Source: Hydnum rufescens UP504
Taxonomy: Eukaryota > Basidiomycota > Agaricomycetes > Cantharellales > Hydnaceae
NCBI GenBank assembly: GCA_014904985.1
Contig: MU128948.1
Span: 258,770 to 322,769 of the forward strand
DNA: 64,000 nt
Direction: 5' to 3'
Of the stretch, positions 1 to 35,900 are shown one piece after another. How positions within the stretch are numbered: the first letter of the stretch is position 1; the number at the start of each line of letters is the position of its first letter. The position numbers and the translations under genes are program-made. The notes under the pieces were generated by a model, which was not told the DNA's origin, did no database searches, and saw nothing but the letters and a program-made list of their open reading frames with translations.

Positions 1-557
1 AGAATCCAGGCAAGAAGAGATAAGAAGGTCAAGAGATGTTGGAGGAGCAATCCAGCAGCCCAGAAGGGACTAGGTGGAAATGAGCACAGCAGTCCTTAAG
101 CTTGTGGAGTCAAACTGGAAAATACTCAGAGCTGTAGTCTGGAGTAACAGCAGAAATCCTGAGATTATGTAATATGAACAAGGAATACAAGAAGGCTGAC
201 CTGTAGTCTGGAGTAACAGTGGAAATCCTGAGAGACCAAAGCTGAGGTCTCTGGACTTCACTGCTGATACTATTATACATGATTGCTATACTACAGGGGA
301 GTGATCACTAAACAGGAGATGGTTAAGGGGGGCAGGAACAGGGACGCAGGCAGGGGGAAAGTGGACAGGAACAGGAACACATGGGGAGCATACTGGAAGC
401 AACAGGGAATGAAAAGGAAATTAAATTAAATCAGAAGCAAACTAGAAGCAAACCAAACTCGGGGAAGCAGGGGTGGAGTGGAGCAGACAGAGGGAGGAGT
501 GGTCTGGAGTAGACCAGGAGTGGATCAGAGTTGACCAGAGTAGATTGGAAAAAGGGA
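1..557 (-). repeat. Inverted, truncated Ty3/gypsy LTR
   Basis: Reverse-orientation copy of the same LTR subfamily as the solo LTR that starts at 5709. Shared blocks include the complement of the CCCCTGTAGTATAG promoter-proximal block and the repeated CTGTAGTCTGGAGTAACAG motif (seen twice here). The left end runs off the window. The right end stops at the AAAAAGGG block, about a dozen bases short of the expected TGACA terminus, and joins gypsy pol sequence directly. This is an LTR in the wrong orientation for the element to its right, so the join is a rearrangement or a truncated insertion, not a normal 5' LTR. Confidence 0.8.
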
Positions 558-3500
558 GCTCGTACCCGAGGAATTCCGTGACTTCCAGGACGTGTTCTCC
601 AAAGACTCCTTTGACCAACTCCCCACCCAGAAGCCATGGGACCACCACATTGAGTTCCAAGAAGGAACTCAGCTACCTCCTCCTGCCAAACTGTTCCTGC
701 TGTCCCCGGGTGAACAGAAAGAACTCGACGACTTCCTGAAGGAGAATCTCACTTCCGGTCGAATCCATCCGTCAAAGTCTCCAATGGCCGCTCCAGTGTT
801 CTTCGTGAAGAAAAAGGATGCAGGGTTCCGCCTAGTCCAGGACTACCGGAAACTCAACGACATCACGGTTAAGAACGCGTACCCCTTACCCCTAATCTCT
901 GACGTGATTGATCAACTCCGTGGAGCTAAAGTGTTCAGGAAACTTGACCTCTGGTGGGGATTCCAGAACATCCGGATGGCAGAAGGAGACGAATGGAAAG
1001 CAGCATTCCGGACGAACCGAGGACTGTTCGAACCGTTGGTAATGTTCTTCGGACTTTGCAACTCCCCGGGGACGTTCCAGAACATGATCAATGACGTCCT
1101 CAGGGAGTGGATCGACAACGGAGTATGCATTGTGTACCTGGATGACATCTTATGCTTTGCCAAGACTCGAGAAGAGTACGTCCGAGGCGTCCGAGGCATC
1201 CTACAGACCCTCCGGGAAAACAAACTCTTCCTGAAACCGGAGAAGTGTGAGTTCTTCCGAGATCGGATCGAATACCTGGGGATGATATTCATGCCGGACC
1301 ATGTGGAGATGGACCCTGTCAAAGTCGGAGGCGTAACGGACTGGCCGGAGCCCAAAAACCTGAAAGAAACACAGTCATTCTTAGGGTTCATTAACTTCTA
1401 CCGACGATTCATTCAAGATTTCGCCAAGGTTGCCAGACCTCTAAACGATCTCACCCAGAAAGACACACCCTTCCGGTGGACCAATGCAGAACGTAATGCC
1501 TTCCTCAAACTGAAAGCCCTCATCACTTCCGCACTGATCCTAGTGTTTCCCTCCGAGTCCGGACGCTTCTGAGTGGAGGCGGATGCCTCTGGGTATGCAA
1601 CGGGAGCTGTACTCTCCCAACTCCAAGATGACGGGAAGTGGCACCCAGTGGGCTTCTTGTCAAAAAGCTTATCTGAGGCCGAAAGAAACTATGACATCTA
1701 CAACAAGGAACTCTTAGCCATCATCCGGGCCTTGGAAGCTTGGAGACACTACCTCGAAGGTTCCCCTCACTCAGTCGAGATCTTGATGGACCACCAGAAC
1801 CTCCAGTACTTCCAGTCTGCCCAGAAGTTGAACCAGAGGCAAGCCCGGTGGAGCATATTCCTCTCTCAGTTCAACTTCACCCTCCAACACTGTTCCGGAA
1901 CACAGTCCAGGAAGCCTGATGCCCTCTCATGCCGGTCGGACCATCCATGTGGGGACTCTGACAATTCTGATGTGGTGCTCCTGAAACCGGCCGCCTTCCA
2001 GACATGGGCCACCAACTCCCCGGAGGTCATCACAGTCGAAGGGCCCAGCCGGAGCCTGATGGCACGGATCAAAAGGGCAACGGAGATCGACGATAAAGTG
2101 GTCCAGATCGTTAAGGAGCTGAATGGGGATGGACCGAAGACACACCTCAAGGATTGGGAACTCCATGGCTCCACAGTTCTCTACCGAGGCCACGTATATG
2201 TCCTGTTGGACCCCAAACTCCGTCATGACCTCGTGCATGAGCACCATGATACTCCGACCACGGGTCATCCCGGACGGTGGAAGACGTACGAGCTGGTATC
2301 CCGCCACTACTGGTGGCTGGGGATGTCTTGATACATTGTGACCTATGTCTCTACCTGTGACACTTGCAACCGGATGAAAACCTTTCCTTCCAAGCCATCC
2401 GGAACACTCCACCCCAACCCTGTGCCGGACCGTCGATGGCAGGTCATATCCGTGGACATGATCACAGAACTCCTGGAATCACATGGATTTGACAGCATGA
2501 TGATCGTTGTCGACCGATTATCCAAACGAATCCATGCAATGCCCACGACCACCACAGTTGATTCTGCCGGGGTCGCCCGTCTGTTCCGAGACAACGTGTG
2601 GAGACATCATGGCCTTCCGGAAACCATTATCAGCGACCGAGGCTCCACCTTCACTTCCAAGTTCATGAAGGAGCTGAACTCACTCCTTGGCGTTAAAACG
2701 AACTTCTCGACAGCATTCCACCCCCAGATGGATGGACAGACGGAGCGTGTCAATCAGGAAATTGAGCAATACCTCCGGATCTTTGTTAACCACCGGCAGA
2801 ACGACTGGGCAGAATGGCTCCCTATTGCGGAATTCGCATATAACAACCGTGTGCACTCCTCTACACGCCAGACCCTGTTCGGCTGGACTCCGGACAGGAC
2901 CCCCGCCTTGGCACTGAACCAGTCCATGCCGGGACAGTTGAAGCCGCCTCGGACTTCATCACTCGGATGCGGAAGGCTACGGACAAAGCCAGGCCGCCTT
3001 ATGGAGGGCTGCAGAAGACATGGCATGCTTCTATGATGCCCACCGCACGGACGCTCCGGAATACACAATTGGCGACCAAGTTTGGCTAGATGCACGTGAC
3101 ATCTCCACCAACCGCCCCACTAAAAACTCTCTGACAAATGGCTTGACCCTATAAGGTTGATAAAGTCATCTCCCGCTCTGCCATCTGTCTCAAACTCCCT
3201 GCCTCCATGCGTATCCACCCAGTGTTCCATGTATCCAAACTCCGCCCCTTCCGACCGGACTCGATTGCAGAGCGCACAGCTCACCCCCCACCACCCCAAT
3301 CTTACGAGGAGGTGAAGAGGAGTACGAAGTCGAGCGAATCGAGAATTCCAGGTATTTCCGCCGGAAACTCCAGTACCTAGTGAAGTGGAAGGGGTACCCA
3401 GCTTCCGACAATGAGTGGGTCCCTGAAGCCAACCTGGACAACGCCCCGGAGGCCATTCAGGAATTCCACCGGACTCATCCGGAGGCCCCGAGACGCATTA

Positions 3501-3660
3501 ATGCTGTGGAGTTCGCATCCATACCGTTCCGGACCACCCAGTTCCTTACGGAGTCTCCGACGGACCTCCCGGACTGGGTCGACGCACTGACAGATTCAAG
3601 GAACAACGTATTTACAAGGAGGAAAGAAAAGGAAAAAAGGAGGAGTGGAAGACAGAACAA
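558..3660 (+). pseudogene. Ty3/gypsy chromodomain retrotransposon pol, 5'-truncated
   Basis: Remnant of a polyprotein for reverse transcription and integration. Visible in order: reverse transcriptase (from about 562; YLDD active site near 1135), RNase H (EADASGYATGAVLSQ, from 1576), integrase zinc region (H..H with CDTC near 2357), integrase core with all three acidic residues (SVDMIT, ISDRGS, QTERVNQEIEQYL), and a C-terminal chromodomain (YLVKWKGYPASDNEWVPE, about 3372-3428). Gag and protease are absent because the 5' part is replaced by an inverted LTR. Two in-frame TGA codons (1570-1572, 2329-2331) sit at family Arg positions. Further indels lie near 2935 and 3120-3300 (integrase tail to chromodomain), so one reading frame no longer spans pol. 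In the RT block, LDLRWG of the family reads LDLWWG, a CGG to TGG change. The chromodomain and domain order place it among chromoviruses. Confidence 0.93.
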
Positions 3661-3669
3661 CAACTCGGA

Positions 3670-4569
3670 CTACTCATCGCCCTTGTCATCATCATCCTCA
3701 TTGTCCATGTCATCGTCCTCGCCATCAACATTGTCGTTACCACCCTCGCTATCCGTTATGTTAATGGGCTCCTCGGTATGCTGACGCTTGATCCCGCGTC
3801 TGGACGACGGACCCCCACCGGAGGCCGGCTCGACCATTCCAGGCCTGATCCCCATCCACTCCGGACTCGGGACCGGAGGGTGAGAAACCACCTGGCGAGG
3901 GACCAGGTGCCGGGTGATGGCCTGAAGAGAATCTTGCATCTCCCCCACCGAGAACGCCATCTCCTCCACGGCCTGGGCCTGTTTCTCCAACGCCTCGGCC
4001 GACCGTTTGTGCACAAGCGTGCTTTGCTCCGCGGCAACCGCTAGTCGGAGCTGGACGTCCGCTGCAGGAGCATGAGCATGGCCCCAACCCATCGATGGCT
4101 CGGCTCCAGATGCCCCTTCGTCGCCCAGCGTGCATCGAACCTTCGCCATGAAGCACGGCCGGCATGCCCGCATTCCTGGCTTGTCCTGGGGGACACAAGG
4201 GATCCGGTGCTGAATACAGTGGATGCACACGGTAGACCTGGAAGACATTATTACCAAGTAAGTGGAACTTCACCAAGACACGGACTCACGGCTGGTTCGC
4301 AGAGTCCTCCCGGACCCTCCTGGCAGTAGCCTCCACGGTAGCCTTAGCCTCCGCGGTGGCCTTGGCCTCTGCAGTGGCCTTGGCCTCCGCAGCTGCCTTA
4401 TGACGCGCTGCCTCAGCGCCTTCCGCTTCGCCTCCTCCTTCTTCTGCTCCTCCTCTGCGAGCCTGGCCTCCTCCTCCTGTGCCTCCCTCAATGCCTGCGC
4501 AGCCTCTTCACGGCGGAGACGAGCTTCTTCAAACGGAGAACGATTATTGCCTGACATGTTACGTGGCAC
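3670..4569 (-). CDS. Antisense, spliced Zn2Cys6-type ORF carried by the gypsy element
   Basis: Lies on the strand opposite pol, between the chromodomain and the 3' LTR. Exon 1 (4569-4290) encodes an Arg/Glu/Ala-rich, coiled-coil-like segment that includes EEARLAEEEQKKEEAKRK and then an AEAK/ATAEAK repeat. Exon 2 (4237-3670) starts ST-VCIHC and contains six cysteines spaced C-X2-C-X6-C-X10-C-X2-C-X6-C, the exact fungal Zn(II)2Cys6 binuclear cluster spacing. A Glu/Gln-rich helix and a very acidic Asp/Glu tail ending at 3670 follow. The intron (4238-4289, 52 nt) has a GTGAGT donor and a CCAG acceptor, and its phase joins the exons in frame. One single-base frameshift near 4412-4425 is needed to keep the AEAK repeat in frame. 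The spliced length (848 nt) is one base short of a whole number of codons, which fits a 1 nt deletion. I expect a nuclear DNA-binding or chromatin role from the cluster, but function is inference. This copy is probably non-functional. Confidence 0.62.
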
Positions 4570-4628
4570 AAGAACTCCGGATGTTTCTGCGGATCGATCC
4601 TTCCCACCCGCTTGGGATGATCGGGCTT

Positions 4629-4641
4629 AAGAGGGGGGTAA
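4629..4641 (+). promoter_or_regulatory. Polypurine tract of the gypsy element
   Basis: AAGAGGGGGGTAA directly upstream of the TGTCAGAG start of the 3' LTR. Position and composition are those of a plus-strand priming site for reverse transcription. Confidence 0.8.
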
Positions 4642-5252
4642 TGTCAGAGTTCATCCGTTTCCCAGTTAATTCCGGATTTGTTTCCGGATTTGTTCCGGTT
4701 TGTTTCCGGTTTGTCCCTGCCTCCGTTTCATTTCCCTTCATTTCCTCGTTTCCTTTACTTCCGGTTCTCACACACTTACCCCTGGCCCTGTCCCTGTCCC
4801 CTCCACTTTCCTGTCCCCTGCCCGCTCCCCCCTTGTGCCTGCCCCCTGTAACCACTTCTCATTAAGCGATCAATCCCCCGTAGTATAGGAACTATGTATA
4901 AGTAGTCTGGGGTGAAATCCAGAGATTCAGCTTTGGTCTCTCAGGATTTCCGCTTCCACTCCGGACTACAGGTTAGCCTCACTGTACCTATTCCCTTAAT
5001 GTTAATCTCAGGATTTCCGCTTCCACTCCGGACTACAGTCCGAGTACTTCCCAGTTGACTCCGTGAGCTTAAGGACTGCTGTACTCGTTTCCGCCTAGTC
5101 CCTTCCGGGCTGCTGGATTGCCTCTCCGTCTCAATCTCATTATCTTGTTCTTGCCCGGATTCTCCCGGACTTAGCCGGACTCACGCCAGACTTAGTCGGA
5201 GTTATCTGTGTTTATATTTGTTTGGTGCTCTCGTCGCAGCATGGCCCTGACA
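4642..5252 (+). repeat. 3' LTR of the gypsy element (611 bp)
   Basis: Begins TGTCAGAG and ends CCCTGACA. CpG-rich compared with the other LTRs of this group, for example the solo LTR copies at 5709, 14728 and 16475, so it is probably the youngest. It contains a TATA-like TATGTATAAGTAG about 250 bp in, followed by two copies of the CTCAGGATTTCCGC block. The following five bases are TCTTC. The matching left duplication cannot be tested because the 5' end is lost. Confidence 0.88.
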
Positions 5253-5940: not shown

Positions 5941-6144
5941 TATTGGAATGAATACATCCCAATATGGGAATAAACCTGGAACCTTCCAGAAAGATCTAAG
6001 ACCGTCCAGGACCATATAGGCCCATCTACATCCGTTATTCCCGTATATACTCGAACCCCATAGAAACATGTATTCATATATAAATACCGAGATTTTACTT
6101 GGTAAATCATAGTGTTGTTTCTCTAAAAGACTTATATCTTAACA
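5941..6144 (+). repeat. copia-1 5' LTR
   Basis: Starts TATTGGAATG (both LTRs have TA where copia LTRs usually have TG) and ends CTTAACA. It has a TATA-like TATATAAATACC about 60 bp before the end. It differs from the 3' LTR at ten bases, all in seven CpG-derived positions. Confidence 0.93.
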
Positions 6145-6158
6145 CGTTATCAGCACCA
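6145..6158 (+). promoter_or_regulatory. Probable primer binding site of copia-1
   Basis: CGTTATCAGCACCA follows the 5' LTR at once, the expected place for tRNA priming. The sequence differs from the initiator-Met-half type site of the other copia elements in this window. The tRNA used is not established. Confidence 0.5.
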
Positions 6159-7293
6159 GTCACTTAAAAACAAAGACACTTGTTATGCCCAACATCGCCC
6201 CGATAGACAAGAACACCCTCAACGGTTTTTACCAGATCAATCAATTGAAAGGGGACAACTGGCTTCCATGGAAAACCAGGGTCACGGCATTACTCGCGAT
6301 AGCCGATCTAACGAAATATATTGACAGCACCTACCCATGTCCCAGTGATGAGTCCCTGATCAAAGAATGGGAGACTCAAGATCTCCAAACTCGATCCTTA
6401 CTCCAATTGACCATGGGAGATGAAGAACTCATCCATTTAAGCGGTGCTCAGACCGCGGCCCAAATGTGGACGCAATTACGTGACACCAAGGAGCCCAAGG
6501 GCATTTTTGGAGTAGTCGCAGAAAGGCAAAAATTATTACAAATAATTCCATCTGAATCTACGCCAATAATAGAACATATTGCCATATTCTGAAAAGCCAA
6601 GGAAAACCTCGCGATATTGGGCTATCCGCACCTCGGTCAGCCACTTGGGCTGACCTTAATAGGTGGGACAAATCCCTCATCTAGTCAGCCTAAGAGGCCT
6701 ATTTTTTCTTTGATGTCAATTGACAATCCTTGGATGTCAAATTGACATCTGGCCATCTTTCTGGAGCAGAATCAAACACTGTGAGCAGAAGCATATGGAT
6801 ATATTTAGTTGGGGGGTATCGGAATAGGTCCTGGAATGCCCGGGGACACCCCTGAATGGGTCAGTGGGCTGGTTGATTCCCAATATGGAAATGTAATTAC
6901 ATAATAGCCTAAATAGGAAATTATGTAATTCACCCAAAAAGCGGTGACATAATCATACACAATAGTAGTATTATGTAATGTATTACATAATTAATTGATG
7001 AGATAATTATATTATATTATATAATATATATTACCTAATATACATATTATCTAATTAATCATTACCTAATTAATCATTACCTAATTACTACCTAATTAAT
7101 TATATAATATAGGTCACATGACCAGCACTCCTGTGCCAGCCATGCCAAAAAGAGGGGGCACCCCTGCCCCAGACCAACTGGAGGGGTGGGGCAGGGGTCA
7201 GAGGGGCCCACCAGAGGGGATGGGGGCCCCTGGGTGAGGAACTAAAGGATCCTATAATGGGGGGTCGACAGGTTAGTTAAAAAAATCAATAGT

Positions 7294-11226: not shown

Positions 11227-14200
11227 GTGAAGGAGGCAAAGTCCATGACACCTGAGTCGACAAACCAGGCAATCCATCAAGACCCTGAGTATGCACTCAG
11301 TGCCAGATCCAGCTCTGTGATCTCCAAATCTACGTGGCTAATCGACTCAGGCATGACATCCCATATTGCAACTAAACAGGAAATGTTCACTGAATTCATT
11401 CCTGGGACCGAACTTATCCAAGGAATTGGCGAAAACATGCAACTGGAGGGAAAAGGCCAAGGCACTGTCACTATTGAAGCTCGATACAATGGGAAATTAA
11501 TCCCTGTCAAACTACGTGACATCATATATTCCCTGAACGCGGAAACTGTCTACTGTTGTCGGCACAGATCGACAAGCTAGGATGGGAAATATGACATAAA
11601 AATGGAAAAATCACCATTTTTCCCCCTAATGGACAGCCCATAATGGAAGGAACATTACGCAATAGATCATACATATTGGAGGGACGAGCACGAATGACTG
11701 AGACAGCAAATTATGCATCATCGAGTCCTGCACCGATCTCATGGGGAGAGGCCCACCAGAGATTTGGCCACCTGTCAATCTCAGGGCTCAAAACCCTATT
11801 CAATTCCGATATGGTAATGGGAATCAAAGTTGATCCCAATTCAAATCAAGATCTTGTGTGTGAGGCTTGTATTCAAGCCAAATTACATCATCAATCACTT
11901 CCCAAATCGAGTGATAACCGAGCCGGGAAACCTGGCGATCTCACACATTCTGACTTGTGGGGACCAGCAAGAACTGCTTCCATTGGAGGATCGTGGTATT
12001 ACATATCATTCATCGATGACCATTTGAGACGAATCACCATCAAATTCCTTAAGGAAAAGTCAGAGGCATGGCAACAAATCCAAAACTGTGTTGCGTGGAT
12101 TGAAACCCAATTAAATTGACTGCCAAAAGCATTTAAATTTGATAATGGCAGTGAATTTATTGATCAGGATCTCCAAAAATGGTTAGCTGAAAAAGGAATA
12201 GAATCTAAATTTACTGCACCCCATTCACCCCAACAACATGGAATGGCCAAGCGGCCAAACTGGACTTTACTCGAGATCGCGCGAGCTATGCTAATCACCA
12301 AAGGTTTACCTAAGAACCTATGGGTGGAGGCAGTTTCATATGCCACGTACATCTGAGCACGAAGCCCTACAAGGGCATTACATAATAAAACCCCGATGGA
12401 GGTATGGACGGGTATAAAGCCAGACGTATCTAATCTCTGCGAATTTGGATCCGACATATGGGTCCTAGATGAGGGCGACCAATCAAAATTAGACCCGAAG
12501 GCAAATAAATTCTTTTTTGTCAGCATTGAAGAGGGACCGAGGGCCATTAGGTACTACAACCTGAAAACCCACAAACTTTTAATTTCCCAGAACTTCAAAT
12601 TCAATAATAGCCCCGACACCCCAAGCCAGGTCAATCTCGATCTCCCCATCCCTTCTGGTAATTCTAATTCCGACTCAGAACATGCTCGAATTGAGGGGGA
12701 GCCCCAGGAACCTGAGACTCGCGATACCAATTCTCTGCATATTAAAAACAATTCAATATCACCCCTGGAACTGACGCTGCCCACTCGCCATGGCTTGCAC
12801 AAGCAGTAAGACAATTAACTACACAAAACTACATAATCCAGGAACACGGAAGGAAATAGTACCTGCTCAACAAAATAAACCCGATGAACTAAGCCCCGAG
12901 GGTGACATGACTGACCATGTCAGGTCATTAATTTCAGGCGAAAAGTCAATATTTGATGAGCCTAATACACTAAAGGACACAATGAAATCCCCAGACTGGC
13001 CGCAATGGGAAAAGGCAATTCAAAGTGAATGGCAAATGCTGCAGGAAAAAGGGACCTGGAGACTTGAATCCTTACCTGCGGACTGACAGGCAATTGGCAA
13101 TCGTTGGACATTCAAAAAGAAATTTGATGTCAACAGGAATCTATCATGATTCAAAGCCCAATTAGTCGCTCAGGGATTCACTCAGATTCCTGGTCAAGAT
13201 TTTGACCAGACATTTTCTCTGGTAATGTGCATGGACTCATTACGTAATCTAATTGCTACCACCGCCATCCTAGACCTTGAAATGGGTCAAATGGACATAA
13301 GGGGTGCATATTTAAATGGCGATCTACACGAATCTATATACATGCGACAGCCCGAGGGATATGAAGATGGGACGAACAGAGTCGCCCAATTGGTCCACAC
13401 ACTCTATGGACTTAAACAATCAGGCCAAGAATGGAACACAAAATTCAATGCCTACATAACCGGCACCTTAAAATACACCCGGTTGCCGAATGATCACTGC
13501 ATTTACATAAGGCACAAAGGCAAAGAATTCAATATAATTGCCATTTGGGTAGATGATGTCATCTTCATCTCATCATCAAAGGTGTGATTAGACACAGCCA
13601 AGGATGAAATCAGACGCGAATTCAAGACCACGGACCAGGGGACACCACGTCTATTACTTGGAATTGAAATCAATAGAAACCGAGAAAGGAAATTGATCAC
13701 GATCTCTCAGGGTCAATATATTAGGAAAATCCTAGATCGATACAACATGTCCCAAAGCGGAACATCTGTCACTCCCCTACCGGCTTCCATCCAGTTCCAC
13801 CCGACAAATGATGATAATAAATTCAAGCACCCAGAATTATATCGGGCAGCCATAGGCTCCTTAATGTATGCCACTATTGGAACACGACCCAACATTGCTT
13901 ATGCAATACAATCCCTGTCTCAATTTTCCCACAATCTGTCCAATGAACATTGGCACACAGTCAAACACCTATTTAGGTATCTACAAGGAACTAAAGACAT
14001 GGGGATTACATACGATCAATGCGGGGGAAGTGCCACCATAGCCATATCTGGATTTTTGGATGCTGATTGGGCGTCAAATGAAATTGATCGGAAATCAATT
14101 TCTGGATATACCTTTTTACTCGGCGGAGGAGCAATATCATGGACTTCCAAGAAGCAGTCCATTGTGGCCCTATCATCGATGGAGGTGGAATATATTGCCG

Positions 14201-14511
14201 CTACCTTAGCTACAAAGCAAATAATATGGCTACGAAACTTCTTCAATACCCTAGGTTTTACCCAATCCAGACCTTCAGAACTACACATTGATAATCAATC
14301 GGCGATTGCCCTGACGGAAAATCCCCAATTTCATGTGCAATCAAAACACATTGATGTACAATTTCATTTCATTCGGGAAACAATACAACAAGGCATAGCA
14401 ACAGTCCATTGGTGCTCTACAAATGAAATGACCGCGGACATATTTACAAAGTCACTCCTGCACCTGAAACTCAAACAATTCCGGACGGACTTAGGAATGG
14501 CATTGGTCTGA
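11227..14511 (+). pseudogene. copia-1 pol: protease, integrase, reverse transcriptase, RNase H
   Basis: Protease WLIDSG at about 11337. GAG-pre-integrase with HQRFGHLS...CEACIQAK (HHCC). Integrase core HSDLWGP and FDNGSEF; the catalytic Glu of the family's GMAER motif is Lys here (GMAKR, about 12240). RT with QMDIRGAYLNGDL and an intact VDD (IAIWVDDVIFIS, about 13537). RNase H with DADWASNEIDRKSISGY and a normal end at 14511, just before the purine tract. In-frame TGA codons at 12117, 12354, 13084, 13147 and 13585 all stand where the family has Arg. Frameshifts lie near 11545 and 12790. Otherwise full length. Confidence 0.92.
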
Positions 14512-21954: not shown

Positions 21955-23070
21955 AACAGATGAATTAAATGTCCATCCAGTCCTTAATTTTCAAAGTGTT
22001 CATTCATTGGAGAAACAGTCCAAATTCAACATGTCTGAAATCCATCATTCCACATTGTTCCTTTGCCTTAATGGTGATGAATTGTGATTATGGAATGACA
22101 TGGACTATGCCTGGCCTTAGTTCTGGACCTGCAGATCTGTCACATGATTTAAAAAGGGGTTATGCCACTCTCAAGGAGTATTCATTAAATTTATTGGTCA
22201 GTTTTGATTAGATAGACTTGAAAAGGTAGCTCCCAGAGAGATACAAATTATACCTATCAAAAAATACCAAATACAAGCTGAACAGATGAAAAATGCAGTC
22301 TCTGTAACATTATCTCTTCATGGTTCATACTCTGAAGGAGTAGTTTTTGATCTTTGAAGTTAATTCTTATCTGATTTGCTCTCAACAATAACTCCCCAGA
22401 AGCTGTTGAAAATGCACATCAAATAGTACCAAGTGAAATACAATTTGCCATTTTTCACAAGACAATCCCCTTCTCAAGACTCCCCTTCTCCCCCACCAAC
22501 ACAAATGACAAATTGGCTCTGGCCACCTTATATCTGATGTAAAGGACACTGAGGGCAGCATATTCCACCATTCCTGAAGGGAATACGTTTAGTTGGAAGG
22601 AAGGAAATGCCTTGTAATGACTTATTTCCTTGATTTCACATGATTTTTGAATATCTCTACCAGTTTTGAGGCTTTCAGCTTTATTTCTTTTTCATTATGT
22701 TTCCCTAATATCTGCTTTTCTTCAGGAATTTTGAATTGTGGTCTGGAATGTATATAAAGGGGAGGGAGCATGTAAATAGTTGGGTTTTCCCCTAGGTCAG
22801 TTTGAGGCACTGAAGTATTGCCACTGTCTGGAGGAGATTTCCACCTGTCAAGACTGTGTACAGCCACATTTAGACTGAATAATCAAGAGAACAACCTCAG
22901 GGTGTGGCCTTGACATCTTTATCCATGACACTGATTCATTCCCTTGAGCAACCACTGTTCATTGGAATTTCCTACTATCCAAAAAAGACCTTCCTTCTCT
23001 CAGACCTTAATATTCAAATTGTCCCTGTAGCTCCCTTCGTTTTTCTTCAACTCAATGACATGGACAGTGG
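21955..23070 (+). repeat. Decayed, end-trimmed family B LTR
   Basis: Collinear with 15230-16400: GGTCAGTTTTGATTAGATAG here corresponds to the CpG-bearing CATCAGTTTTGATCGTATCG there. Both termini are unclear. It lies between copia-A GAG-pre-integrase and the integrase core. It is an old copy with almost all CpGs turned to TG or CA. Confidence 0.7.
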
Positions 23071-23709
23071 TAGGATTGGTTGATTTCCATCCTGCTTACA
23101 GCAGTACTAGCAGCCACATTGGCATGCTCAACTTTGTATAGGCCATTACTGCCTACTGGAATTTCCCCAATAATCACACCCTTGAGATTTTTTATTTTAC
23201 ATGAGGTTCTGTCAAATAGGACCCTGTGACCTGCTTTCATAATCCAATTAATTGAGATGACAGTGAGTCCCATTTCTGGGGTATGTAGGGCATCATGTAA
23301 TATGACCAGGGTGAATTTTCCACCATTTGGCACTTGTATTTTTGAATCACCAGTGCCAATAGCATAGAATATCTGTTTGTCAGCTGTGGTAATTGGGTGA
23401 GGGTCAATAGAGCAATAATTAATAAATTGCTCTTTGTATGGGAACATATGCCTTGCTGCCCCTGAGTCATATAATTCAGTGTAGATGGGGGAATTTATCT
23501 GGGTATTTATCATGGCCATGGTACTCATCTCTGGCCTTGTGGCCTCAATTACAGCCCATGCTTCAATGTTGGTATGCTCTGTGGCTGTGGCTGTGATTTC
23601 CTTCACACCTGCCCTGGGGCTTGTGGACCACTGTGGCCCCTGCCCCTCCTTTTCTCCCCCTTTCACCCAACAGTCTGCTGTATAATGCCCTTTCCTGTGG
23701 CAATTATCA
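23071..23709 (-). pseudogene. copia-A zinc knuckle, protease and GAG-pre-integrase start
   Basis: Minus strand. Second half of the zinc knuckle NCHRKGHYTADCW (about 23700-23662), an acidic/Ser-rich spacer, then the aspartic protease motif LYDSGAARHMFPYKEQF, the ADKQIFYAIGTGD segment and HDALHTPEMGLTVIS, a pattern typical of copia polyproteins. The first zinc knuckle Cys is separated from the rest by the foldback insertion at 23710-24398. Confidence 0.88.
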
Positions 23710-24398
23710 CTATTTTGGAAATAGTTGGCCAAAATTGTTTCCAAAAAAAATTTGCCAAAAATGGCATGAAAACTGTAACACTCTTTATGCTGCCAATATA
23801 GACCCATTTGCTTCAAAAACAGATGCATTGGACTCATGTGATTGTGTTCTACCTTATGAGCCTAAGTACAAGTCATTCTGGCCTGTTTTGCTGTTTTTGC
23901 TTGCTCAGGCCTGTAACCTCTCCACCATTCCCAATATGGCTCAGAATCCTTTCATTTTTGAATATGTTGTTCCTGTGGTCATAGTCTAGCAGAATCTACA
24001 ATCTCAGAATTTTAGGAATTTATTTCATATTTCAGTGAACTGAAATAGACTTATGGTGGGTGCTTCTACTTCACTGGAATATGAAATAAATTCCTAAAAT
24101 TCTGAGATTGTAGATTCTGCTAGACTATGACCACAGGAACAACATATTCAAAAATGAAAGGATTCTGAGCCATATTGGGAACAGTGGAGAGGTTACAGGC
24201 CTGAGCAAGCAAAAACAGCAAAACAAGCCAGAATTACTTGTACTTAGGCTCATAAGGTAGAACACAATCACATGAGCCCAATGCATCTGTTTTTGAAGCA
24301 AATGGGTCTATATTGGCAGCATAAAGAGTGTTACAGTTTTCATGCCATTTTTGGCAAAATTTTTTGGAAACAATTTTGGCCAACTATTTCCGAAATAG
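23710..24398. mobile_element. Foldback MITE (689 bp) in copia-A gag
   Basis: Ends CTATTTTGGAAATAGTTGGC and its near-complement, with near-perfect arms of about 340 bp meeting near 24055. The insertion falls between Cys codons of the zinc knuckle (ECF on one side, NCHRKGH on the other). Flanks GGCAATTA and AGCAATAA are only partly alike, so the superfamily is unsure. The arms are still nearly identical, so it is younger than its host. Confidence 0.85.
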
Positions 24399-32997: not shown

Positions 32998-35900
32998 CTA
33001 CTTTCCACCCAGTTCATGATGACATTGTCCCCACTCCATGCCACACTTCAGGTGCTGAAAATCAATCTCAGTAGTGTTGGGATTCCCAATGATGTGGCAG
33101 TGAGGATGGCACAGGTATGCATGGTAGGCTGCAGGGACCCAGAGAATAAGCTCATGACTGGGTCCCAAAATCCATCCATCATCAAGTTGAAAGTGGGATG
33201 GTGGGAGTGGGAATAGATGGACTGGGTATTGGAGGATGTGTTTGGACACTGCCATGGGCAATTTCAAACTGTTGAGAGTGTTTTCCTTAGGGCCAGAAGG
33301 GAGCTGGTTGCCATCAAGTGAGAAAGCAATGGACAAGATGTAATTATCATGCCCTTCCATTGTCTGGCCAATGCTCACCCCTGTCTCCACATTCCAGAGT
33401 CGGATGGTCTTGTCTGAGGAGCCAGAAGCAATCTGCTTCCCATCAGGGGAGAAAGCAACTGATGATACACCAGACTGGTGTCCTTGTAATATCAGTATGA
33501 TATTTGGCCAGTGCTGAAGGTGTCCCTGAACAAGTTTTCCAACTCCTGGAAATTCACCTTGCCATCTCTGATATAGGAGGGATGAAATGGGAGCAAATGT
33601 CAAACCAGAGAGGTAGATGTGAGGCATGCTTGTTGCAATGGCACTTGCAAACATCAAGATGAATTGCATGGCATCCTGTTGCAGTTCAACAAGGTCCACA
33701 GGAATCTGGGGAATGCATGTTAAGAATCAGTCCACTGCTTCAGCATGGACTCAAATTGGAGCCATGCTTACATGGGAGGCACTAAGAGAGGCTAATGCAA
33801 TTTGAGGGGAGCTATCCGTAACACTCATCACTTCCAACCAGTGTAGGAAATCCTTCTGAAAGAATGACTCCATGCATTTGTGAGCAAACTTGCCACTCAG
33901 TGTCGCAGACACATGGACACCCCAGAATCGACAAGCGTAATACAGCTGAGAAGGGATGTGCTTTTCCCGGAGATCCTTAATGTTGGCAATGTTGGCATTG
34001 CGGAGGAATGACGTCGGAATTTGACAGATATTGAATTTTAAGCTCTGGTCCATGATGCAGAAGCATGCCAGGGCCATGTCCTGATTCACTTCATCTTTGT
34101 TGATGCAGAAATCTTCGTTATGCTCTGGGTCACACAAGAAATCGCGATAAGACGAGTGGAGAGGCGCGATGGGGTCATGGTCACTGTGAGTACCACTAAG
34201 GAGCGAGCCCAGATGTTTCAAAATCCCTCGTTGTAGTTCCTTGTCCTCAGGGTCATCTGGAGTGAGGATAGAGTCAGGTGGAACCAGGTGCACTAGGGCC
34301 TGGAATGACAATGGCTCCTGAGCACATATGATTCGGCCTAGGATCGACTTGACTCGTTTTACTTCTATCTCCATCGATGGATCGCAGTGCGCTTTCATAA
34401 CTGTGCTATACAGCCCATACAGCCTGTTATCACTCCTCAGCACCTTCGCAATCCGCTCCTCCAGACGGGCACCAGCTTTACTATCGCGAATGAAGCGGCA
34501 GGCGGTAGCGGCCCACTGAAAGGATGTTCCAGCCTTCCGAACGAGATCCCTCAGCTGTGTCTTGTGCTTCTCTCGGAATTCAGTCGTAAATTCACCGCAC
34601 ACATACTTCGCAATATCGCGTGAGGTCTGATGCTTGGGGACGTCGTCTACAAGTATGATTTCAACACCAGGTGGCAGTGGAGACTGCAGCGCATCTTGAA
34701 TATCGGGCTCATATCTCGAGGTGACTACGATTCGAAGACCCGGAGGGAATTCGGAGGCTCGATTTGTTAGAATGGCGAGTGCGTCGGCGCGAGCCAGGAC
34801 ATCCCCGGACTCGTCAAATGCATCGATGAAAACAACGGTCTTCCCCGCGGCCTTCTCATCCTCGAATGATGCAACGATGAAGTGCTTGAATTGTACTTTG
34901 CAGTGACCGGTTGTTCGTATCTCGATGTCGTTCTTGATCGCATTGATCAGTCGTTGCTTCCGGGAATCATCACGTTCGGCGAGGTCTCGAGCGATCGTAC
35001 TGAACAGGTTGGTCAGGTTTGCGAGAGGCTGATTTTTGTCAAAGCCGTAGTACGAGCCCTTGCGTTCATGCTCAGAGACGCGTTTCGCACATGAGCGAAG
35101 GATGGATGATTTCCCCGCACCCGCCATGCCGCAGAACCAAAGGACACGAGATGATTCATTGGAGCTCAACTTTATTGGGTTGCTCGGATCGGACGACGAC
35201 GGATTCCCCCCAAGAGCCCAGCACACAATGGTGTCAATAATCTCGGTACGCGTGCCCGGTAAGCACGCTTTATCTAGAGCATGATGGGCCTCTGGGGCAT
35301 ATTTTATTTCGCTGAGTACCTGCCAGTCCCCTGTGGACCATCTCAGAACGCGGGTTTTTGACCGATGACCTTCAAGCACTTACGGACTTCAATCCCGACA
35401 TCTAAGACGTGATGTGTAATGACGGAGCATTGTATGTTGGCATGATCGACTAGATTCTGTCGGAGAGTCTCCAGGGTCCCCTTGTAGTCATCGATCCTTG
35501 CGTCCATAGGAGAACCTGTGTTCTCCACGATGCGTTTCACTGTGGCCCATGTCGATCAGTCTTGGATTAAGTAGAACATGTGAGATTCCACATACCGAAG
35601 GACCTGTTGCAATAGTCTCGAATGAAATACGCACACTCCATTACTTGGCGCAGGATTTGGTTGATGATGTCTCGATCTCTTTCCGAGCGCCTCTTCAACT
35701 CCTCGGCTTCATCGGCAAAGGAGCAGCTATCCGTCATAGTCTGAACTAAACCCATCACTTTGGCGTCTCGGGCACTTTGGTCGGAAGCGATCTAATGGAA
35801 CATCAGTCATAGACCGTAAAGATACACAATCTGAGTCTAATCGTACGTTATACGCTGCTGAGACAACACCCCATGCTACCTTAATCCAGGGGTGAATCTG

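Follow-up and report, generated by a model that had tools for sequence, protein, structure and literature searches.

An intron-bearing antisense gene for a Zn2Cys6-like protein in a Ty3/gypsy chromovirus lineage of Hydnum rufescens

The 64,000-nt stretch of Hydnum rufescens UP504 DNA analysed here (contig MU128948.1, positions 258,770 to 322,769; hereafter the window) begins with a broken copy of a Ty3/gypsy chromovirus. On the strand opposite its pol, between pol and the 3' long terminal repeat (LTR), lies a two-exon gene that spans 3670–4557. Comparison of its copies indicates that this is almost certainly a real, intron-bearing accessory gene of the fungal element, encoding a Zn2Cys6-like protein. 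This reading is based on purifying selection on the antisense frame, conserved splice sites around a faster-changing intron, tight linkage to one element lineage and the lack of intronless junctions. That the protein controls the element or its host's chromatin, as suggested in a preliminary description of the locus, is plausible and unproven. For the antisense gene and an LTR-regulating protein taken together as one statement, the case is evenly balanced.

Gene structure and host element

The gene and its host element are arranged as follows.
544–3784, plus strand: broken pol with reverse transcriptase, RNase H, integrase and chromodomain (the last at about 3323–3472; Pfam).
3670–4237, minus strand: exon 2, with six-Cys motif, linker, long helix, basic motif and acidic tail; stop codon at 3670–3672.
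4238–4289, minus strand: 52-nt phase-2 intron, GTGAGT...TTCCAG; the unspliced exon-1 frame hits TGA in the donor.
4290–4557, minus strand: exon 1, with ATG at 4557 (MSGNN...), charged helix and AEAK repeats; frameshifted in the window copy.
4627–4640, plus strand: polypurine tract 5' of the 3' LTR, read by eye.
4642–5252, plus strand: 3' LTR (TGTCAGAG...CCCTGACA), ends read by eye; presumed source of the antisense transcript, with a putative promoter role.
4671–4710, no strand assigned: U3 array of four CCGG sites at 11–12 bp spacing; possible binding sites, unproven.

The phase-2 intron follows the bases CC, and the unspliced message reads CCG TGA, terminating within the donor. Because the unspliced exon-1 frame stops there, a full-length protein would require a spliced antisense transcript. 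The preliminary description had placed a 52-nt intron at 4238–4289 of the minus strand, and this intron does join the AEAK frame of exon 1 to exon 2 in phase; the Zn(II)2Cys6 spacing (C-X2-C-X6-C-X10-C-X2-C-X6-C) and the acidic tail that it reported are both present in exon 2. Its two-exon arrangement stands, while its extent of 3670–4569 is corrected here to 3670–4557, with the ATG at 4557. The AEAK repeats of the window copy are out of frame with the ATG by one base, so exon 1 carries a one-base frameshift.

The host element is truncated at its 5' side (near 545) and retains the 3' LTR as its sole LTR. Pfam domains RVT_1, RT_RNaseH, Integrase_H2C2, rve and Chromo follow in gypsy order on the plus strand, and pol is disrupted: two TGA codons interrupt it in frame, and its reading frame also shifts. 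An overlap of pol, read to 3784, with the antisense gene was rejected, as it occurs in the window copy only and through a shifted pol frame; in better-kept copies pol ends DW[ST].H ahead of the antisense stop, and the pair converge but do not overlap. The 3' LTR lies 84 nt from the antisense ATG in the window copy. Both LTRs were found in six family copies, with a divergence of 3.0–4.0%. Among the 124 differences in these pairs, 122 are transitions and 93 fall at CpG, a pattern that fits methylation decay. At positions 1–379 a diverged LTR of the same type, inverted (76% over 392 columns), adjoins the truncated 5' end of pol.

Copies of the gene and conservation of the intron

The exon-2 protein gives 99 matches in the 63-Mb genome and the spliced 309-aa product gives 131. 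These matches are tallied by exon and fragment, so the loci are fewer, and the family has about 60 loci in this genome. Homologous antisense frames, which the preliminary description had named as a test of the gene, are present at dozens of loci. Of these, 20 loci were read at 10 kb (82–100% identical to the window DNA across the region of the gene) and 12 more diverged ones at 2–2.5 kb, and at 31 of the 32 a chromodomain lies on the opposite strand (the exception is L037). Three sequence clades are seen: A, the window type, B, and C (L030 and L031). Thirty copies were counted, 19 of clade A and 11 of clades B and C; outside this count are L017, split by an insertion, the decayed L040, and a second, scrambled copy in L018. 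This second copy (element-oriented 1766–2850) has 74% identity and many one-base indels, unlike the CpG-type decay elsewhere, and is perhaps an assembly problem.

All 30 copies have a 52-nt intron ending in AG, with its length taken from alignment in 19 copies, from donor and acceptor matches in nine, and set to 52 in L030 and L031 (CAG end). The donor is GT in 26 copies and AT in four. Intron position and phase are identical across the three clades. The intron changes faster than its surroundings: in one A–B pair its identity is 46% versus 69% and 78% in the flanking exons, and in one B–C pair it is 69% versus 89% and 94%. A start codon inside the intron (MSSR...) was considered and rejected: the ATG is absent from clade B introns and lost in L025. 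Clade C introns have ATGs at other places, none at this one. The spliced frame is open in 11 of the 19 clade A copies (one without ATG, three with the AT donor), while five have stops and three have frameshifts.

Donor junctions that bear the intron occur at 64 places, 55 in clade A (14 of them AT) and nine in clade B. No intronless exon–exon junction of either clade was found in the genome with up to three mismatches allowed, clades A and B being those searched. The lack of such junctions beside so many donor junctions indicates that the gene is multiplied along with the element and not by way of its own transcript. The element copies itself from its sense RNA, where an intron on the antisense strand stays unspliced and survives; this had been argued before from the window copy, and the copies fit it. 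Two metagenomic relatives, P0003 and P0004, run from exon 1 to the Cys motif in the wrong frame and have as many residues there as clade C, consistent with an intron of equal length.

Selection on the antisense frame

Ratios of dN/dS were obtained by the Nei–Gojobori method between clades in the gene's own frame, with clade B proteins trimmed at 115 residues, ahead of their frameshifts. Exon 2 gives 0.11–0.22 (eight pairs) and exon 1 gives 0.14–0.30 (six pairs), compared with 0.06–0.15 for the Pol chromodomain (five pairs). The A–B and A–C ratios are rough because exon 2 dS is 1.2–1.5. Among the other frames, the codon-register complement gives 0.18–0.35 but contains stops, and the remaining four give at least 0.87. 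Closer pairs range from 0.27 to 1.73, as expected for decay after insertion. Within clade A, length differences common to more than one copy are all multiples of three, and those of odd length are each in a single copy. Of the 30 shared non-CpG variants in clade A exon 2, 19 affect third positions (p 3e-4), and of the 30 private ones 13 do (p 0.16). The between-clade ratios are preferred over this within-clade test because most variable sites are CpG-capable. Purifying selection on the antisense gene is well supported by these sequence comparisons, and the comparison of related elements proposed in the preliminary description comes out in favor of a protein-coding frame.

The selection data also bear on the possibility that the antisense RNA itself is the functional product, pairing with sense RNA and feeding silencing or copy-number control, with the protein secondary. 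An antisense location across the element's 3' end would suit such a role, and double-stranded RNA has been raised as an option for plant antisense frames (PMC7264820, available text). However, own-frame dN/dS is well below 1 in both exons, the frame is kept across the intron, and the shared clade A length differences are all multiples of three, which makes an RNA product quite improbable.

Linkage to one element lineage

Linkage was counted with 113 of 150 chromodomain places entered. Among these, 61 of the 62 places of at least 78% identity have the gene no more than 2 kb away on the other strand, compared with only 2 of 51 places below 78%. Five sister elements at 60–72% identity (L041, L042, L043, L046, L047) were read, and three more distant ones (L044, L045, L048). 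The six-Cys frame is absent within 2–2.5 kb downstream of the chromodomain in all eight. L041 has a 2019-aa open frame at pol. In gene-less L041, L042 and L043 the LTR begins 49 nt past the pol stop, whereas the gap between pol and LTR is 1053–1148 nt in five gene-bearing copies of clades A and C. The gene therefore appears to behave as a cassette of one element lineage, present in nearly all its copies.

Zn2Cys6 proteins and introns are typical of fungal host genes, as would suit capture of such a gene that the element then carries passively. Retention of the gene under selection in three clades and the difference in the pol–LTR gap between sisters and gene-bearing copies speak against it, and we regard passive carriage as very improbable, though no search aimed at a free host relative was made. 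That the open frame and its splice signals arose by chance is barely credible. The window copy taken alone is frameshifted and has no Pfam match above the cutoff, as a chance frame might, but copy number, intron conservation, dN/dS, junctions and linkage are all contrary.

The encoded protein

The protein has 309 residues in one open copy and consists of a charged AEAK helix, the six-Cys motif, a long coiled coil, a basic motif and an acidic tail. Zn2Cys6 domains have the spacing C-X2-C-X6-C-X5-12-C-X2-C-X6-8-C, and this spacing is found in 26 of the 30 copies. The conservation of cysteines that the preliminary description asked for is observed in the same number: all six are kept in 26 copies, three of which have a stop codon inside the motif. 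In the structure model the Cys region forms two short helices followed by a long helix. All 23 Foldseek matches of this model are Zn2Cys6 domains, with weak E-values; the VIA listing names no other fold, and it excludes nothing. Matches to Pfam Zn_clus are partial and below the gathering cutoff of 21 (12.1 bits for the window protein, 17.7 bits for the relative P0010), and a Pfam scan of nine short Cys-motif pieces gave no match for eight and one weak match under the cutoff. The spliced 309-aa protein has no Pfam bZIP match at E of 5 or less. In the window protein (residues 8–22) and in P0010 (residues 21–34), it is the second part of the Zn_clus profile to which the first Cys triplet aligns. 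The other triplet, which has K-x-[KR]-C, resembles the usual first half. The cluster is possibly half-swapped.

Fifteen relatives were found in the protein database, all unnamed or 'hypothetical', with 31–59% identity to the window protein. Eight have all six cysteines and the remaining seven are truncated. These relatives are probably antisense gypsy genes as well. A third protein search added two further short fragments only (P0016 and P0017), and an IMG/VR scan gave 77 pattern matches and no relatives.

Possible function

The Zn2Cys6-like domain may bind zinc and DNA. The antisense transcript would start in or near the 3' LTR and be spliced to give a protein of about 290–310 residues. The protein would pair via its coiled coil, enter the nucleus by means of its basic motif and bind DNA through the Zn2Cys6-like domain. 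Its most likely action would be to adjust transcription from the element's own LTRs, as feedback or latency control. We hold this regulatory mechanism tentatively, at slightly less than an even call.

The strongest rival is that the same gene makes a protein that directs integration or tethers the element to host chromatin beside the Pol chromodomain, with no control of transcription. The DNA-binding-like fold with a coiled coil in the model and the chromodomain of the carrier Pol would suit this, and nothing marks out the LTR as the target of the protein. Sister elements with a related chromodomain, however, manage without the gene, and antisense expression would be odd for a protein needed with Gag-Pol particles. 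Targeting or anchoring is considered unlikely, and LTR regulation remains the preferred reading.

Helically spaced CCGG/TCCG arrays are seen at the U3 start in clades A, B and C and also in L042 and L043. CCGG array pairs in U3 exceed dinucleotide shuffles (P of 0.001 or less) in five of six gene-bearing elements, with a value of 0.07 for L014. Gene-less L042 and L043 have a CCGG array and gene-less L041 and L047 have none. The array does not single out the gene, and it was rejected as the protein's own target.

Other features of the window

The window also holds Copia-type pieces at 6143–6592 (plus strand), 13588–14511 (plus) and 23052–23861 (minus), which Pfam identifies as gag, the end of reverse transcriptase and a Pol beta-barrel. 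At 32998–35379 (minus) a NACHT/STAND-type ATPase frame (NPHP3_N) precedes WD40 repeats, the whole being divided between two frames (Pfam).

Comparison with known systems

Zhao et al. reportedly described in 2011 an antisense gene, brtn, of the Boty element in Botrytis cinerea and Sclerotinia. The gag-pol of Boty has a chromodomain according to the available text of PMC4227169, and Boty, a fungal gypsy element of this kind, is similar in reportedly carrying an antisense gene. In plants, the interval from pol to the 3' LTR holds antisense frames in Grande (gene23), RIRE2, Retand (TRP28) and PvRetro13, as described in the accessible parts of PMC7264820 and PMC11963269. TRP28 frames occur in 97% of Retand clusters and are predicted to bind DNA (PMC11963269, available text). 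The plant frames resemble the fungal gene in position, orientation and number of copies, with products that are nuclear (gene23) or predicted to bind DNA (TRP28); they belong to other protein families, and the word 'intron' has no occurrence in the available text of PMC7264820 or PMC11963269. By position the fungal gene would be of the aORF-3R type: in most copies of its lineage it sits antisense in the stretch that separates pol from the 3' LTR.

This class of position is thus already known from plants and Boty, while the combination of an intron with a Zn2Cys6-like domain was not found in the literature searched. No spliced or Zn2Cys6 antisense gene of a fungal gypsy element appeared there, most subscription papers (Zhao 2011 included) being outside it, and 'antisense' is absent from the text of PMC3411680 on Laccaria elements. 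What antisense accessory genes do in LTR retrotransposons is unknown according to the available text of a review (PMC7264820). Here that question becomes directly testable: the gene has a DNA-binding-like domain that can be recognised, its intron is informative on strand and splicing, its dozens of copies allow evolutionary tests, and gene-less sisters in the same genome serve as a natural control.

Gal4, Put3, Ppr1, Leu3 and Hap1 share with the modelled protein the six-Cys spacing, the two helices and a linker followed by a coiled coil. Unlike Gal4-type factors, the antisense protein is under the Pfam cutoff, with the first of its Cys triplets placed on the second part of Zn_clus. HBZ of HTLV-1 and the APH proteins of HTLV-2/3/4 are antisense, spliced and driven by the 3' LTR, and several of them lower LTR activity (PMC10186651, available text). 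The fungal gene is similar in adjoining the 3' LTR, in its splicing, as predicted from sequence, and in its regulator-like product. It differs in that HBZ is a retroviral bZIP factor and the fungal product a Zn2Cys6-like protein of a retrotransposon, whose start in the 3' LTR is putative; no homology is claimed. It is possible, more doubtfully than LTR regulation as such, that a zinc-cluster transcription factor, produced by splicing of a message that starts in the 3' LTR, serves as a feedback or latency regulator of the element, with the phase-2 intron and its donor TGA acting as a check on strand and processing. This would be an HBZ-like strategy reached independently outside retroviruses, and the logic of HBZ could then extend beyond them.
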